A DNA stretch of 64,000 nt from Nostoc sp. B(2019) (GTDB taxonomy: Bacteria > Cyanobacteriota > Cyanobacteriia > Cyanobacteriales > Nostocaceae): positions 141,775-205,774 of the forward strand of contig NZ_WVID01000006.1 of NCBI RefSeq assembly GCF_010091925.1, given 5' to 3'. Made by a program: the position numbers and the translations under genes. The notes below the pieces were generated by a model. The model was given only the letters and a program-made list of their open reading frames with translations. It searched no databases and was not told the origin of the DNA. Position 1 is the stretch's first letter, and each line of letters opens with the position of its first letter. This document shows positions 58,008 to 64,000 of this stretch, piece after piece.

Positions 58008-58081
58008 CGGGATGTAGCGCAGCTTGGTAGCGCACTTCGTTCGGGACGAAGGGGCCGCTGGTTCGAATCCAGTCATCCCGA
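58008..58081 (+). tRNA. tRNA-Pro (CGG)
   Basis: A 74-nt cloverleaf. Acceptor stem CGGGATG/CATCCCG, discriminator A. The D arm contains AGCGCAGCTTGGTAGCGC. The anticodon stem CTTCG/CGAAG has loop TTCGGGA, so the anticodon is CGG (reads CCG, Pro). The T arm has GGTTCGAATCC. CCA is not encoded. It lies in an intergenic region upstream of the lasso cluster. Confidence 0.95.
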
Positions 58082-59009: not shown

Positions 59010-59312
59010 ATGCCTGTAAACTTATCGACCGATTATTCCAAGGTAGTAGCAGCCAAGAATCAGATTTTTTCTGAACTGCAAGGAGAAGCAGTTATTCTTG
59101 ATATCAACTCCGGGGTTTACTACGGTTTAAATCAAGTAGGAGCCAGTATTTGGAATTTGATTCAAGCTCCGAAAACTGTAAAAGAAATTCGGGATGCCTT
59201 GTTGACAGAGTATGAAGTTGATTCCCAAGCATGTGAAACTGACATTTTGGTATTGCTTGAAGACTTAGCAACAAAAGGACTGATCGAGATAAAACATGAA
59301 GCAGGTGCTTAA
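59010..59312 (+). CDS. Lasso-peptide PqqD-like leader-binding protein (B1)
   Basis: A 100-residue PqqD-fold (RRE) protein. The pattern is ELQGEAVILDINSGVYYGLNQVGASIWNLIQAPKTVKEIRDALLTEYEVD, then the helical C-terminus with LVLLEDLATKGLIEI. B1 proteins bind the precursor leader and present it to protease B2 and cyclase C. It is first in the cluster and overlaps B2 by 17 nt, which argues for coupled translation. ATG 59010 has no obvious Shine-Dalgarno. Confidence 0.9.
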   Translation: MPVNLSTDYSKVVAAKNQIFSELQGEAVILDINSGVYYGLNQVGASIWNLIQAPKTVKEIRDALLTEYEVDSQACETDILVLLEDLATKGLIEIKHEAGA

Positions 59313-59733
59313 GTTACTGCGCCTCATAAACAAAGATCGCAATCTTTTGATAAATACTTTTATTTTGTTGGGATTAATCAAATTAGGATTGTGGTTACTG
59401 CCATTTCAGACATTACGGCAAATCCTGGGTAGCATTAGTCAGCCAAACGCCAAACTAGACCAAACCTCCCTTAGCAAAATTATCTGGGCTGTTAATGTAA
59501 GTACTCGTTATATGCCTAGTGGTGCTAAATGTCTCGCCCGTGCTTTAGCTTGCCAGGTACTCATGACTCGACGAGGTTACTCACCAGAACTCCGTATAGG
59601 AGTTGCCAAAAGTGACGAAGGGAAATTAGAAGCCCATGCTTGGGTTGAAAGTCAAGGACAGGTTGTAATTGGCTATCTACAAGATCTTCCACGCTTTACC
59701 CAACTGCCATCTTTGCCAGGAAACAGACTATGA
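59296..59733 (+). CDS. Lasso-peptide transglutaminase-like leader protease (B2)
   Basis: A 145-residue cysteine protease of the lasso B2 family. It has a hydrophobic N-terminal segment (about 18-38), then the transglutaminase-like site with Cys79 (GAKCLARALACQ) and His114 (LEAHAWVESQG). A third triad residue (Asp130 or a nearby one) is expected. It removes the leader after the conserved Thr-x dipeptide. The start overlaps B1 and the stop overlaps the cyclase gene (ATGA), so B1, B2 and C form a compact operon. Confidence 0.92.
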   Translation: MKQVLKLLRLINKDRNLLINTFILLGLIKLGLWLLPFQTLRQILGSISQPNAKLDQTSLSKIIWAVNVSTRYMPSGAKCLARALACQVLMTRRGYSPELRIGVAKSDEGKLEAHAWVESQGQVVIGYLQDLPRFTQLPSLPGNRL

Positions 59734-61709
59734 GTGGTATCATCGGCATCTACAACCTTGATGGCAAGCTGGTTAATTATCAGCAACTTAAGGATATGGT
59801 CAATATTCTTGCCCATAGGGGGCCAGATGGGTCAGATGCCTGGTGTGCTGGCTCTGTTGGGTTGGGTCATCGAATGTTATGGACTACTCCTGAATCATTG
59901 TTGGAAAAGTTACCTCTAGTTAATCAAACTGAAGATTTAGTTATTACAGCAGATCTTCGTATAGATAACCGAGATGAACTGATTCATGCGTTACAGCTTA
60001 ATAACTATCCACCTGAAAAAATAACTGATAGCCAGCTAGTGTTGGCTGCTTACGAAAAATGGGGTGAGCAATGCCCAAAAAACCTATTAGGTGATTTTGC
60101 TTTTGCTATTTGGGATAGGCAAAAGCAAATAATATTTTGTGCCAGAGATCATTTTGGCATTAAACCTTTCTACTACTATGCATCTGAACAAGCTTTTATT
60201 TTTGCTAGCGAAATCAAAGCTATCTTTTGTGTGCTTGATGTTCCTCGTCAAATCAATGAAGTGAGGATAGGTGACTATCTTGCATCAATGTTTCACGAGG
60301 CAGATATTACCTCCTACAAGGATATCTTCAGGCTACCTCCTGCTCACAGCATGACAGTAAGCCTTGAAGGAATCAAATTACAGTCATACTGGTCTATTGA
60401 CCCTAATCGGGAATTGCGTTTAGGTTCGGATGAAGAATACGCTGAAGCATTTCGTGAAATTTTTAGCAAAGCAGTGGAGTGCCGACTGCGTAGTGCCTTT
60501 CCGATTGGCTCTCATTTGAGTGGTGGACTAGATTCCTCTTCAATTACTTGTATGGCGCGGAAACTGCTTGCTGAAAATGGAGGGCGGCGTCTGCATACAT
60601 TCTCAGCAGTCTTTGATGAGTTGGCTGAATGTGATGAACGCCCATATATCAACGCAGTTGTAGCTCAGGGCGGACTTGAGCCGCACTATATCAAGGGAGA
60701 TCAAATCAGTCCGTTGAAGAACATAGACCAGATGTTTTGGCATCAAGATGAAGCCTTTTACGCACCCAATTGGTCTATGAGTTGGGCTTTGTATGAAGCG
60801 ATTAAAGCGCAAGGTGTTCGTGTCGTCTTCGATGGTTTTGATGGTGATAATGTCGTATCGGATGGTTATGGTTACTTAAGTGAACTAGCACGAGCAGGTC
60901 GCTGGCTAGCTTTGACTAGAGAAATCAAAGAACTAGCTAAAACCTTTGATATGAATTTTTGGAGATGGCTATGGAGTTATGTAAAACAATATGGAATTAA
61001 GCCGACATTTTCCAAATACCCACCTTTGAGGTTTTTTCAAGGGAGTTTGCAAGCACTGACTCGGTTAGGCTCTCGCCAATCTGATAAATCTGCAAACCAG
61101 CCTATTTGGAGTGCAACCTTGAATGCTGAGTTTGTCGAGCGTGTAGGTCTCCAAGAGCGCTATCAGGCTTGGCAAAAAGTTCAAAGTAACTTTGGTCAAA
61201 ACGAAAGAGAACGGCACTACCGTAATATCACCCAAGGTTTAGTGTCATTTGCTGCTGAGATGCAAGATAAGACTTGTGCTGCCTTTTCGGTTGAGCAACG
61301 CTACCCTTTTTGGGACAAGCGTTTAGTAGAGTTCTGCCTCTCCTTGCCTGCTGAGCAAAAGCTGCACATGGGCTGGAACCGGGTCGTCATGCGCCGTGCA
61401 ATGGCTAATATTTTGCCGATGGAAGTGCAATGGCGTCGAGGCAAAGCAAATTTTTCTCCAAATCTCGTCCACGGTTTGTTGTCTTTTGAGCGAGAGCGTT
61501 TGGACAAGTTAATTCTGCATGATTTAGGAGTCCTTGCAGAATATATAGATGTTACTGACCTCAAGCAGACATATCAAAGATTTATCTGTTCACAATCTCC
61601 AACAACAGGAAAGGATGTCCACACAATTTGGATAGCTGTTTCTTTAGCTCTATGGTTGCAGTATGCTGCACAGGACAGATCTAATGAATTTGCCAGAGAA
61701 GGAGTTTAA
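59730..61709 (+). CDS. Lasso-peptide cyclase, asparagine-synthase-like (C)
   Basis: A 659-residue macrolactam synthetase that adenylates an Asp/Glu side chain and closes the ring on the core N-terminus. The N-terminal glutaminase-like domain starts MSGIIGIY: the nucleophilic Cys of true asparagine synthetases is Ser2, so it cannot hydrolyse glutamine, as in other lasso cyclases. It keeps AHRGPDG and FAFAIWDR. The ATP pyrophosphatase motif is SGGLDSS (264-270). The C-terminal synthetase domain has RYPFWDKRLVEFCLSLP. It overlaps B2 by 4 nt. Confidence 0.94.
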   Translation: MSGIIGIYNLDGKLVNYQQLKDMVNILAHRGPDGSDAWCAGSVGLGHRMLWTTPESLLEKLPLVNQTEDLVITADLRIDNRDELIHALQLNNYPPEKITDSQLVLAAYEKWGEQCPKNLLGDFAFAIWDRQKQIIFCARDHFGIKPFYYYASEQAFIFASEIKAIFCVLDVPRQINEVRIGDYLASMFHEADITSYKDIFRLPPAHSMTVSLEGIKLQSYWSIDPNRELRLGSDEEYAEAFREIFSKAVECRLRSAFPIGSHLSGGLDSSSITCMARKLLAENGGRRLHTFSAVFDELAECDERPYINAVVAQGGLEPHYIKGDQISPLKNIDQMFWHQDEAFYAPNWSMSWALYEAIKAQGVRVVFDGFDGDNVVSDGYGYLSELARAGRWLALTREIKELAKTFDMNFWRWLWSYVKQYGIKPTFSKYPPLRFFQGSLQALTRLGSRQSDKSANQPIWSATLNAEFVERVGLQERYQAWQKVQSNFGQNERERHYRNITQGLVSFAAEMQDKTCAAFSVEQRYPFWDKRLVEFCLSLPAEQKLHMGWNRVVMRRAMANILPMEVQWRRGKANFSPNLVHGLLSFERERLDKLILHDLGVLAEYIDVTDLKQTYQRFICSQSPTTGKDVHTIWIAVSLALWLQYAAQDRSNEFAREGV

Positions 61710-61915
61710 ATCAACGTCTTCATCTTCTAGAAAAGTTTCCACGATATGTCAAATCATTGTCCTGTTGGTTGTTCTCTTTTAGGCAACACCCAACAGCACA
61801 GCGAGTTTGATTGTTACCCAGCTAGATGGCGTGATATCACACTTAGCTGCTCCTTGGTTCTGAATAGAGCCAACATTGAAAGTAAACAAAACACCAAAAA
61901 ACAATGGAGAAAATT

Positions 61916-62062
61916 ATGACTACTAACAAAAAGGCCTACACCCAACCCAAACTGACTGTTTATGGCGAAGTTGAAGTCCTGACCCAAGGTCTTGGCTTAG
62001 GCTTGTTTACAGATAAAGAATTTCCCATCTCGACTCCCAAAGACGATGTGACTTTCTCCTAA
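61916..62062 (+). CDS. Lasso-peptide precursor (A)
   Basis: A 48-residue precursor with Shine-Dalgarno GGAG about 8 nt before ATG 61916. The leader has the lasso motif Y8-x2-P11-x-L13-x3-G17-x5-T23. After Gln24 the core (residues 25-48) begins G-L-G-L-G-L-F-T-D, with Gly as residue 1 and Asp at core position 9, giving a nine-residue ring. The tail continues through Pro13, Pro17 and Asp19-Asp20 to C-terminal Ser24. All three criteria (Thr at -2, Gly1, acidic residue at 7-9) are met. Confidence 0.93.
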   Translation: MTTNKKAYTQPKLTVYGEVEVLTQGLGLGLFTDKEFPISTPKDDVTFS

Positions 62063-62190
62063 TGAGAGTTTGGAATAACAAATTAGGTAGATTAGGATAC
62101 CCAAGTTTTTAGAACATATACATTCCTAATTATCTACCACTAAATCTGATACATAGGCTTCACAAGCTTAGAAAGTCCAGATGATTCACT

Positions 62191-62223
62191 TACCTCTGTT
62201 TAGGTTACAACTAAGCAGAGGTA
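62191..62223 (+). terminator. Hairpin between lasso precursor and kinase genes
   Basis: TACCTCTGTTTAG (62191-62203) and CTAAGCAGAGGTA (62211-62223) form a 13-bp stem with one G-U pair and a 7-nt loop. It is followed by TTTACTC. It sits about 130 nt after the precursor stop and may raise precursor mRNA level over the downstream genes or terminate part of the transcripts. Confidence 0.6.
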
Positions 62224-62297
62224 TTTACTCGACTTTGAATAAAGAATTAGTTTGTGTGAGTAAGTAATTTATGGGTATTGAATATGGAGTTTATGAG

Positions 62298-63224
62298 ATG
62301 TACAGTTACATTGCTTATGGCTTGAATATCTGCTCTGCTTTATCTCTACCAGAGCTACAAAGTTCAACACATATAGAAGCAGATGTAGTTATCCGCTATG
62401 GAGAAGTAAATTGGTTATTACCTACACCTGCACCATCATGGAGTTACTTTCAGATTGATGGTGAATATACTTACTTGTACTGGAAAGTGGTAGGTAAATT
62501 TTTAGTACGTTCTGGAAAGGAAATTATTATCGAGCCGCTTCCAGGTGTCGAAGAGAGCGTTATTCGTCTACCTCTGTTAGGAGCAGTCTTAGGAATGTTG
62601 CTTCATCAACGGCAGTTTTTGGTGTTGCATGGTAGCGCTGTCGCAGTGGATGGTAATGCTGTCGTTTTTTTGGGGCGATCGGGGCAAGGTAAGTCTACTA
62701 TGGCAGCAACTCTCTATGGACGGGGTCATAAACTGATGGCAGATGATGTAGCTGCTGTAGATGTTGACAGTGCGATCGCTCCCATATTAATTCCAGGCTT
62801 TCCGCGAATCAAGCTTTGGCCAGACGCAGCCACAGCCGCATTAGGAGACAATCCAGAAACATTGAGGAAGATTCACCCTAACGCTGAGAAACGCGATCGC
62901 CCTACTGTCGATAACTTTTTACAAACACCCCTAAGCATCAAGCGAATCTATGTACTTTCTGTAGGTTCAACTCTTCAAATCAAACCTCTCACACCTACAG
63001 AAGCCATAACTCAGCTAATTGCTAATTCTTATATCCCCATGTTAGTTGGTAAGCAATTTATCCAGAGTGCTAAGGCATCTGTGCATTTGCATCAATGTAC
63101 CAGTTTAGTTAACAATCTACCTATCTATAATCTGGAACGGCCCCGTTCTCTAAACTTGTTGGCTGATGTAGCACGTTTGGTAGAAGAAGATTTGGCAGGT
63201 GAAAACCAACCAGTAACAGCATAG
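62298..63224 (+). CDS. HPr-kinase-like lasso-peptide kinase
   Basis: A protein of about 308 residues resembling HPr kinase domains used as lasso tailoring kinases (PadeK-like). The P-loop is GRSGQGKST (residues 126-134 from this start), preceded by HGSAVAVDGNAVVFL. The acidic site LMADDVAAVDVD lies downstream. It probably phosphorylates the core peptide, whose last residue is Ser. ATG 62298 is chosen because GGAG lies about 9 nt upstream; ATG 62271 has no Shine-Dalgarno. It follows the precursor in the same orientation. Confidence 0.85.
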   Translation: MYSYIAYGLNICSALSLPELQSSTHIEADVVIRYGEVNWLLPTPAPSWSYFQIDGEYTYLYWKVVGKFLVRSGKEIIIEPLPGVEESVIRLPLLGAVLGMLLHQRQFLVLHGSAVAVDGNAVVFLGRSGQGKSTMAATLYGRGHKLMADDVAAVDVDSAIAPILIPGFPRIKLWPDAATAALGDNPETLRKIHPNAEKRDRPTVDNFLQTPLSIKRIYVLSVGSTLQIKPLTPTEAITQLIANSYIPMLVGKQFIQSAKASVHLHQCTSLVNNLPIYNLERPRSLNLLADVARLVEEDLAGENQPVTA

Positions 63225-63282
63225 ATTATCTGATTCAGCTTAATCTAACATTTAAAATTTTATTAACGTATAAAATTAAACT

Positions 63283-64000
63283 ATGCGAGCAGGCAAAAAC
63301 ATCAAACGAAAAATCCAGCAAACTTTACACCTTGTGCCTGCATTACGCCTAGTATGGCAAAGTAGTCCCGGTTGGACGATCGCTCGCATAGTACTATTAG
63401 TCATCCAAGGTATACTGCCCGTAATATCAATCTATCTCACCAAATTAATCATAGATGCAGTAGTTGCCAACCTCAACGTTACTGATAAAACAGTCGCCTT
63501 TCGTAATGTCATCCTCTGGGTTATCTTGGCTGGTGCAGTCACTCTTATAAGCAGTGTTTGCAGTTCATTAACAGAATTAGTAGTTACTGCCCATTCTCAG
63601 CAGGTAACTGACTATATGCAGGGAATTATTAATACTAAATCAATTGCTACTGACCTAGAGTACTATGAAAACGCTCAATACTTTGACGCCCTGCAACGAG
63701 CACAACGAGAAGCTCCTTACCGGCCTCCCGAAATCCTCAATCGTTTAGCACAAGTTGGTCAAAGTAGTATTTCCTTAGTGGCTATGGTGGGTTTACTGCT
63801 CTCACTCCACTGGGGAATTATCGGCATTCTTTTTGTCGCAGCTATTCCGGCTCTGCTAGTACGGGTAAAATATAGCCGTGTCATGTATCGTTGGCAGCGT
63901 AAACGTACACAGCCGGAACGGCAAGCAATGTACCTAGCTTGGATGCTGACATCAGACCAGTACGCTAAAGAAATTCGCTTATTTGATTTAGGTGAATACT
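63283..64000 (+). CDS. ABC transporter (exporter), 5' part cut by window end
   Basis: An open frame continuing beyond the right edge (239 codons seen). It starts at ATG 63283 with a basic N-terminus (MRAGKNIKRK), then a hydrophobic segment (IARIVLLVIQGILPVISIYL), a second one (VILWVILAGAVTLISSV) and more after about 165 (LVAMVGLLLSLHWGIIGILFVAAIPALLV). This is the pattern of an ABC exporter membrane domain; the ATPase part lies outside. As the D gene of the lasso cluster it should export, and give immunity to, the mature peptide. Confidence 0.85.
   Translation, partial: MRAGKNIKRKIQQTLHLVPALRLVWQSSPGWTIARIVLLVIQGILPVISIYLTKLIIDAVVANLNVTDKTVAFRNVILWVILAGAVTLISSVCSSLTELVVTAHSQQVTDYMQGIINTKSIATDLEYYENAQYFDALQRAQREAPYRPPEILNRLAQVGQSSISLVAMVGLLLSLHWGIIGILFVAAIPALLVRVKYSRVMYRWQRKRTQPERQAMYLAWMLTSDQYAKEIRLFDLGEY

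Follow-up and report, generated by a model that had tools for sequence, protein, structure and literature searches.

What does the kinase of a cyanobacterial lasso-peptide cluster phosphorylate, and how is its acceptor residue chosen? This question is raised by a group of genes at the end of a 64,000-nucleotide stretch of DNA from Nostoc sp. B(2019) (contig NZ_WVID01000006.1, positions 141,775 to 205,774 of the forward strand), referred to below as the window, in which the gene of a short precursor peptide ending in serine is followed by that of an HPr-kinase-like protein, K. Published lasso kinases are specific for the C-terminal Ser (PMC8498205), and a first-pass annotation of the window had proposed, from the kinase and the Ser end, a phosphorylated lasso peptide. 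The present analysis points to a lasso operon in which K probably phosphorylates Ser24 of the linear precursor before folding, the product being cyclised between Gly1 and Asp9 and exported.

The lasso-peptide gene cluster

The genes are arranged in the order B1, B2, C, A, K and D, all on the plus strand (window 59010-63999), and the cluster spans to window-equivalent position 65100 when the part of the transporter beyond the window end is counted. The features are as follows.

59010..59312, + strand: B1, PqqD-like recognition element of ribosomally synthesised and post-translationally modified peptides (RiPPs), 100 amino acids (aa); NF033536 lasso_PqqD_Bac, 83.0 bits (cut-off 80), PF05402
59296..59733, + strand: B2, transglutaminase-like leader peptidase, 145 aa; NF033537 lasso_biosyn_B2, 120.4 bits (cut-off 33), PF13471
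59730..61709, + strand: C, asparagine-synthetase-like lasso cyclase, 659 aa; NF033535 lass_lactam_cya, 973.8 bits (cut-off 525)
61916..62062, + strand: A, precursor, 48 aa (52 aa if read from ATG 61904); NF033528 lasso_cyano, 32.3 bits (cut-off 33), leader motif, kept in relatives
61988..62059, + strand: core GLGLGLFTDKEFPISTPKDDVTFS, with predicted ring Gly1-Asp9 and predicted phospho-acceptor Ser24; conservation in the subfamily
61916..61987, + strand: leader MTTNKKAYTQPKLTVYGEVEVLTQ, with Thr at -2; sequence, and alignment with 142 unique cores parsed by the same rule
62298..63224, + strand: K, HPr-kinase-like lasso kinase, 308 aa; PF07475, 35.4 bits (cut-off 33.3), structure model, His-Lys-Asp-Asp
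63283..64000, + strand: D, ATP-binding cassette (ABC) exporter, 605 aa, truncated where the window stops; weak matches of the fragment to PF00664 and ABC models

B1, B2 and C each score above the curated cut-off of the NCBIfam lasso models, which places the locus among the split-B lasso clusters. Judged by its sequence, the cluster is a real and complete lasso-peptide gene set, and chance is excluded because the family scores are accompanied by a gene order conserved in relatives and by purifying selection. B1 overlaps with B2, and B2 with C. The leader peptidase B2 has Cys79, His114 and Asp130 all present, while the cyclase starts with MSGIIG, placing Ser at residue 2, and has its SGGLDSS motif starting at residue 264. 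Ser2 replaces Cys in 109 out of 109 family cyclases examined; it is a family trait, consistent with lost glutaminase activity, and not distinctive of the window locus. The exporter D is a complete 605-aa open reading frame in the genome (6058-7875 of L002, the 19 kb region around the cluster), ending at window-equivalent position 65100. The first-pass annotation had listed B1, B2, C, a 48-residue precursor, the kinase and the transporter as one strand block, with Ser2, SGGLDSS, the Cys79/His114 pair and a kinase P-loop, and each of these was found in its place. Its lasso assignment likewise stands, with the NCBIfam scores above cut-off and no Cys nucleophile in C.

The precursor peptide and its core

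The precursor starts at ATG 61916, with GGAG directly upstream. ATG 61904 could also serve as the start, giving 52 aa, but GGAG spacing and conservation make this less likely. The precursor falls 0.7 bits below the NF033528 cut-off, and its leader carries the motif Y-x2-P-x-L-x3-G-x5-L-T, which matches the leader pattern of 142 related unique cores. The 24-residue core is preceded by Thr-Gln, so that the leader motif, Thr at -2 and an acidic ring residue at position 7-9 are found together. An acidic residue stands at core position 9 in 112 of the 142 unique cyanobacterial cores. In the window subfamily residue 11 varies (E, D or A) and Asp9 never does, and a Gly1-Asp9 ring, as predicted earlier, is therefore the best parse of the sequence. 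Calculated monoisotopic masses are 2565.300 Da (lasso) and 2645.267 Da (lasso plus one phosphate).

The window core is letter-identical in five genomes and ends in TFS, in agreement with the Ser end described by the first-pass annotation. The window and L034 precursor genes differ by 14 synonymous and 2 non-synonymous changes, all outside the core. Parsed by the Thr(-2) rule, many of the 142 cores would have Ile, Val, Phe, Gln or Leu in first position rather than Gly or Ala; the first residue may be unusual in these cores, or the cleavage site may be shifted.

The kinase and phosphorylation of Ser24

The likely start of K is ATG 62298, with GGAG 8 nt upstream and kept in relatives; a longer reading from 62271 is less likely by GGAG spacing and conservation. 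K has the P-loop GRSGQGKS, and alignment with 40 relatives placed the catalytic residues His111, Lys132, Asp149 and Asp150 (308-aa numbering). These four residues are needed in lasso kinases, as shown by mutation (review PMC9266682). Structure prediction with the 40 relatives as input gave a mean predicted local distance difference test (pLDDT) score of 93.5 and a predicted template modelling (pTM) score of 0.91, and the PDB matches of the model were phosphoenolpyruvate (PEP) carboxykinases (PEPCK) and HPr kinases (HprK/P), with probability 1.00. A sequence search of solved structures for a lasso kinase matched only HprK/P and PEPCK. By its model K is an HprK/PEPCK-fold enzyme with lasso-kinase catalytic residues, and together with the PF07475 match this bears out the tailoring kinase family named earlier. 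The ratio of non-synonymous to synonymous substitution rates (dN/dS) of 0.11-0.26 against relatives indicates that K is under purifying selection.

In the kinase tree, K falls in a clade of 16, of which 12 clusters carry only Ser-ending cores, and the Bacillales enzymes, all with Ser-ending precursors, form a separate group. K has Gly8, Tyr245 and Pro282 in common with the Bacillales kinases. At several positions, these among them, the kinases of a third clade, clade C, depart from both the window clade and the Bacillales enzymes, with Asn for Gly8 (52/52), Arg for Tyr245 (51/52) and Lys/Gln for Pro282. Phosphorylation of Ser24 is the best inference because K groups with mostly Ser-ending clusters and has these residues in common with Bacillales kinases. 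It is further favoured because every kinase-linked Bacillales precursor recognised in the control described below ends in Ser, three of them with a tail near-identical to that of the window core.

In the proposed mechanism, B1 would bind the leader and K would move a phosphate from ATP to the Ser24 side chain before folding. B2 would then cleave after the Thr-Gln junction, and C would activate Asp9 with ATP and close the Gly1-Asp9 ring around the tail to give a threaded 24-residue peptide, which D would export. In this scheme the sequence of events, the phosphorylation and the use of a linear substrate are modelled on paeninodin biochemistry.

The terminal serine rule in Bacillales and cyanobacteria

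As a control, 299 genomes of the order of Evansella (Bacillales) were searched, and 63 had a lasso-type kinase. Recognisable kinase-adjacent precursors ended in Ser in 40 out of 40 cases (9 and 31 in two batches). Among cyanobacteria, 24 of the 142 unique cores end in Ser, and as read from these sequences the C-terminal-Ser rule fails there. Degeneration of the kinase where the core is without a terminal Ser was considered and rejected, since His-Lys-Asp-Asp is intact in both groups. Of 102 scorable cyanobacterial proteins, 100 retain all four residues and two have Glu for the first Asp.

Several observations weigh against Ser24 being modified as a C-terminal residue. Kinases are kept in clusters whose precursors have no terminal Ser. 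The residues that K has in common with Bacillales kinases are confounded with phylogeny. Within the window subfamily itself, the same Ser is followed by GTF in two L114 cores (TFSGTF) and by ETPMRG in L091 (TFSETPMRG), and a Desulfocapsa core (L038) has a single P after it (RFSP). Because intact kinases occur in clusters without a terminal Ser, the presence of a kinase alone is no proof of terminal phosphorylation. The earlier argument from a kinase and a Ser end is weakened to this extent, as most cyanobacterial clusters keep an intact kinase without a terminal Ser; phosphorylation of the C-terminal Ser stands as the best inference for the window on the kinase clade and the Bacillales-like residues.

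The retention of kinases beside precursors that have no accepted terminal Ser could also mean that the HprK-like protein is no peptide kinase here, and that it has a regulatory role in the cluster or a different protein as its substrate, leaving the lasso peptide unmodified. No assay of any cyanobacterial enzyme was found in the literature searched, which leaves room for such a role. This explanation is unlikely, as the active-site residues are intact, selection is purifying, the kinase gene always adjoins the precursor, and precursor phosphorylation is proven for homologues from Bacillota and Proteobacteria (PMC9266682, PMC8498205).

The TFS tail of the window subfamily

In the window subfamily, the Ser of the TFS motif D-(L/V)-T-F-S is invariant and is terminal in some cores only. 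Cores ending in TFS are those of the window and four relatives with identical core, both L109 cores and one L114 core. Since extended tails occur after the same Ser in the other members, the terminal position is no fixed requirement. Three Bacillales cores (L179, L192 and L193) have a tail near-identical to that of the window, GTPREDLTWS, with a terminal Ser. The related cores end in ...LDQTYPDGTPREDLTWS in these Bacillales and in ...LDADFPVGTPFDDLRFSP in Desulfocapsa L038, and L091 is an example from the window subfamily (LDRDFPDGTPRGDLTFS). The pattern L-D-x-x-(F/Y)-P/E-x-G-T-P-x-x-D-L-x-(F/W)-S is common to the window subfamily, those Bacillales cores and Desulfocapsa L038. Nearly the same tail, LDxxxPxGTPxxDLT(F/W)S, is seen in cyanobacteria, Bacillales and a Desulfocapsa metagenome-assembled genome (MAG) despite kinases of different clades, and this may reflect a shared target or precursor exchange. 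By its tail sequences, the window subfamily stands between the terminal-Ser and internal-Ser patterns.

The extended tails could be explained if the tail Ser were a trimming site, with the later residues forming a follower peptide cut by a protease, so that TFSGTF, TFSETPMRG and RFSP are trimmed to the end of the window core and the Ser becomes terminal, whether phosphorylated or not. Window relatives with and without the extension have everything up to the Ser in common, and the internal Ser of the cyanobacterial cores described below falls almost always between core positions 23 and 34, within the lengths of Ser-ending Bacillales cores. Trimming is nevertheless improbable. In the few clusters inspected there was no conserved peptidase except B2, known lasso kinases work on the linear precursor before processing, and an Asp/Asn two residues past the Ser is also conserved, which a plain trimming site would not require.

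A conserved internal serine in cyanobacterial cores

The 118 cores not ending in Ser were aligned without reference to any motif. The top column was the ring Asp (114/115) and the next a tail Ser (101/113), with Gly before it (101/113) and Asp/Asn two residues after it (107/114). The resulting motif, [G/D]-S-x-[D/N], is present in 85 of the 118 cores; shuffled tails would give 12.8, and none of 500 shuffles gave more than 24. When the set was thinned to 54 representatives below 50% identity, 36 had it, where 6.4 were expected and 13 was the maximum. The internal Ser is usually found between core positions 23 and 34, the region in which Bacillales cores terminate. In clade C, 52 of 68 kinases are accompanied by the internal motif; the precursor of L062, a clade C cluster, has the tail ...NDIDSIDLECTGTAQNLNCVPN. 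These data suggest that many cyanobacterial lasso kinases may act on a conserved non-terminal Ser.

Of 53 loci whose precursors carry the internal motif only, at least 34 have a PF14907 nucleotidyltransferase, annotated like PsmN. PsmN adds a hexose to the phosphate in pseudomycoidin, acting on the phosphorylated lasso peptide. By analogy, the presence of PF14907 beside many clade C clusters suggests that a phosphate is made there. PF14907 genes were located at L045:1305-2432, L062:261-1496 and L069:3-968, and in over half of the fetched cyanobacterial loci.

These findings bear on the window in that the acceptor may be set by the local sequence motif surrounding the conserved tail Ser instead of by the C-terminus. 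The Ser would then be last in the window core by chance and internal in most cyanobacterial clusters, with the same chemistry at the window under a different recognition rule. This possibility comes close to an even chance. It is favoured by a tail Ser second only to the ring Asp in conservation, by a motif far above shuffles that tracks the kinase clade, and by the frequency of PF14907 at motif-only loci. On the other side, the published lasso kinases are specific for the C-terminal Ser, about one fifth of the loci fit neither the terminal-Ser nor the internal-motif pattern, and the association may be cluster phylogeny only. The internal-Ser pattern is a correlation, in which precursor, kinase and cyclase are inherited together.

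A broader proposal is put forward tentatively, as somewhat less than an even chance: cyanobacterial lasso kinases would be a class that reads a tail Ser by local sequence instead of C-terminal position, a large clade phosphorylating an internal Ser in [G/D]-S-x-[D/N] and the small clade of the window being intermediate to the terminal-Ser enzymes of Bacillota. A text search of a library of open-access papers returned nothing relevant on internal Ser phosphorylation in lasso peptides or on tails DLTFS/DLTWS, and no description of intact kinases without a terminal Ser together with a conserved internal Ser was found among the open-access papers searched. If the proposal is true, the statement that lasso kinases modify the C-terminal Ser would be valid for part of the family only, mass predictions from genome mining would need revision, and an enzyme able to phosphorylate residues inside the tail would offer a new tool. 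With its core, identical in five genomes, and its Bacillota-like tail, the window locus is a good terminal-Ser reference for comparison.

Occurrence in cyanobacteria

Of 218 genomes in the window's family, 83 have a cyclase above the model cut-off, and a draw across the phylum gave a cyclase in 16 of 386 genomes (strict E-value). For cluster comparison 100 regions were fetched, containing 109 cyclase genes. On the same strand, 108 of the 109 cyclases are followed within 7 kb by a kinase, with one kinase common to two cyclases in L082; the lone kinase-less cyclase, in L133, is at a contig end. The lasso cluster is ordinary in the window's family and the kinase is a standard component; the first-pass remark that this is rarely described in cyanobacteria understates how common such clusters are. 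Cyanobacterial lasso peptides are almost uncharacterised, though clusters occur in more than a third of the family's genomes.

Other features were noted among the loci compared. Multiple precursors occur in L139 (five) and L114 (three), and tandem lasso clusters with two cyclases each in L082, L097 and L100. Cyclases 47-55% identical to that of the window were found in L035 (Rubrobacter), L036 (Sumerlaeota MAG) and L037 (Nitrospira MAG), which may reflect either horizontal transfer or, for the MAGs, wrong binning. Proteins of about 400 residues beside lasso clusters (L069:1844-3118 and L103:2749-3957) show weak similarity to phosphoribosyltransferases and carry a PqqD domain at the C-terminus, and could be a further tailoring enzyme with its own leader-binding domain.

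Neighbouring genes

The cluster is flanked by lipA and gpsA upstream and by MTAP-like and lpdA-like genes downstream, the gene directly after D being the MTAP-like phosphorylase. The same flanks are present in L021, L022 and L025, leaving a recent acquisition of the cluster by the window genome unsupported. A tRNA-Pro (cgg) lies at window 58008-58081 (+), about 0.9 kb upstream of B1, and is no sign of recent insertion because the flanking genes are common to relatives. In a promoter scan the number of sites was not above that in shuffles.

Comparison with known systems

The paeninodin cluster of Paenibacillus dendritiformis (padeACKB1B2D) resembles that of the window in its split B1/B2, AsnB-like C, HprK-like K with His-Lys-Asp-Asp and ABC exporter, and its core likewise has Ser at the end and Asp in the ring. 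Gene order (B1-B2-C-A-K-D in the window) and core sequence differ, and K has only about 30% identity to a Bacillales kinase, that of Evansella. ThcoK of Thermobacillus, SyanK of Sphingobium and PsmK of pseudomycoidin are of the same kinase type as K and act on the C-terminal Ser of linear precursors. Nucleotidyltransferases of the PsmN type are present in many cyanobacterial sister clusters, whereas a search for PF14907 gave no match in L002, the 19 kb around the window cluster.

Cyanobacterial clusters of the NF033535/NF033528 type have, like the window, a cyclase far above cut-off, the same leader type and a kinase in practically all cases. They differ mostly in having another tail with the internal [G/D]-S-x-[D/N], whereas the window belongs to the small TFS-end subfamily. 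The Bacillales loci L179, L192 and L193 and Desulfocapsa L038 have a core pattern like that of the window, but kinases and cyclases of other clades, and the Desulfocapsa core has one Pro after the Ser, unlike the window core. The window locus is a further example of a known lasso cluster type, while an internal-Ser acceptor class would be new.

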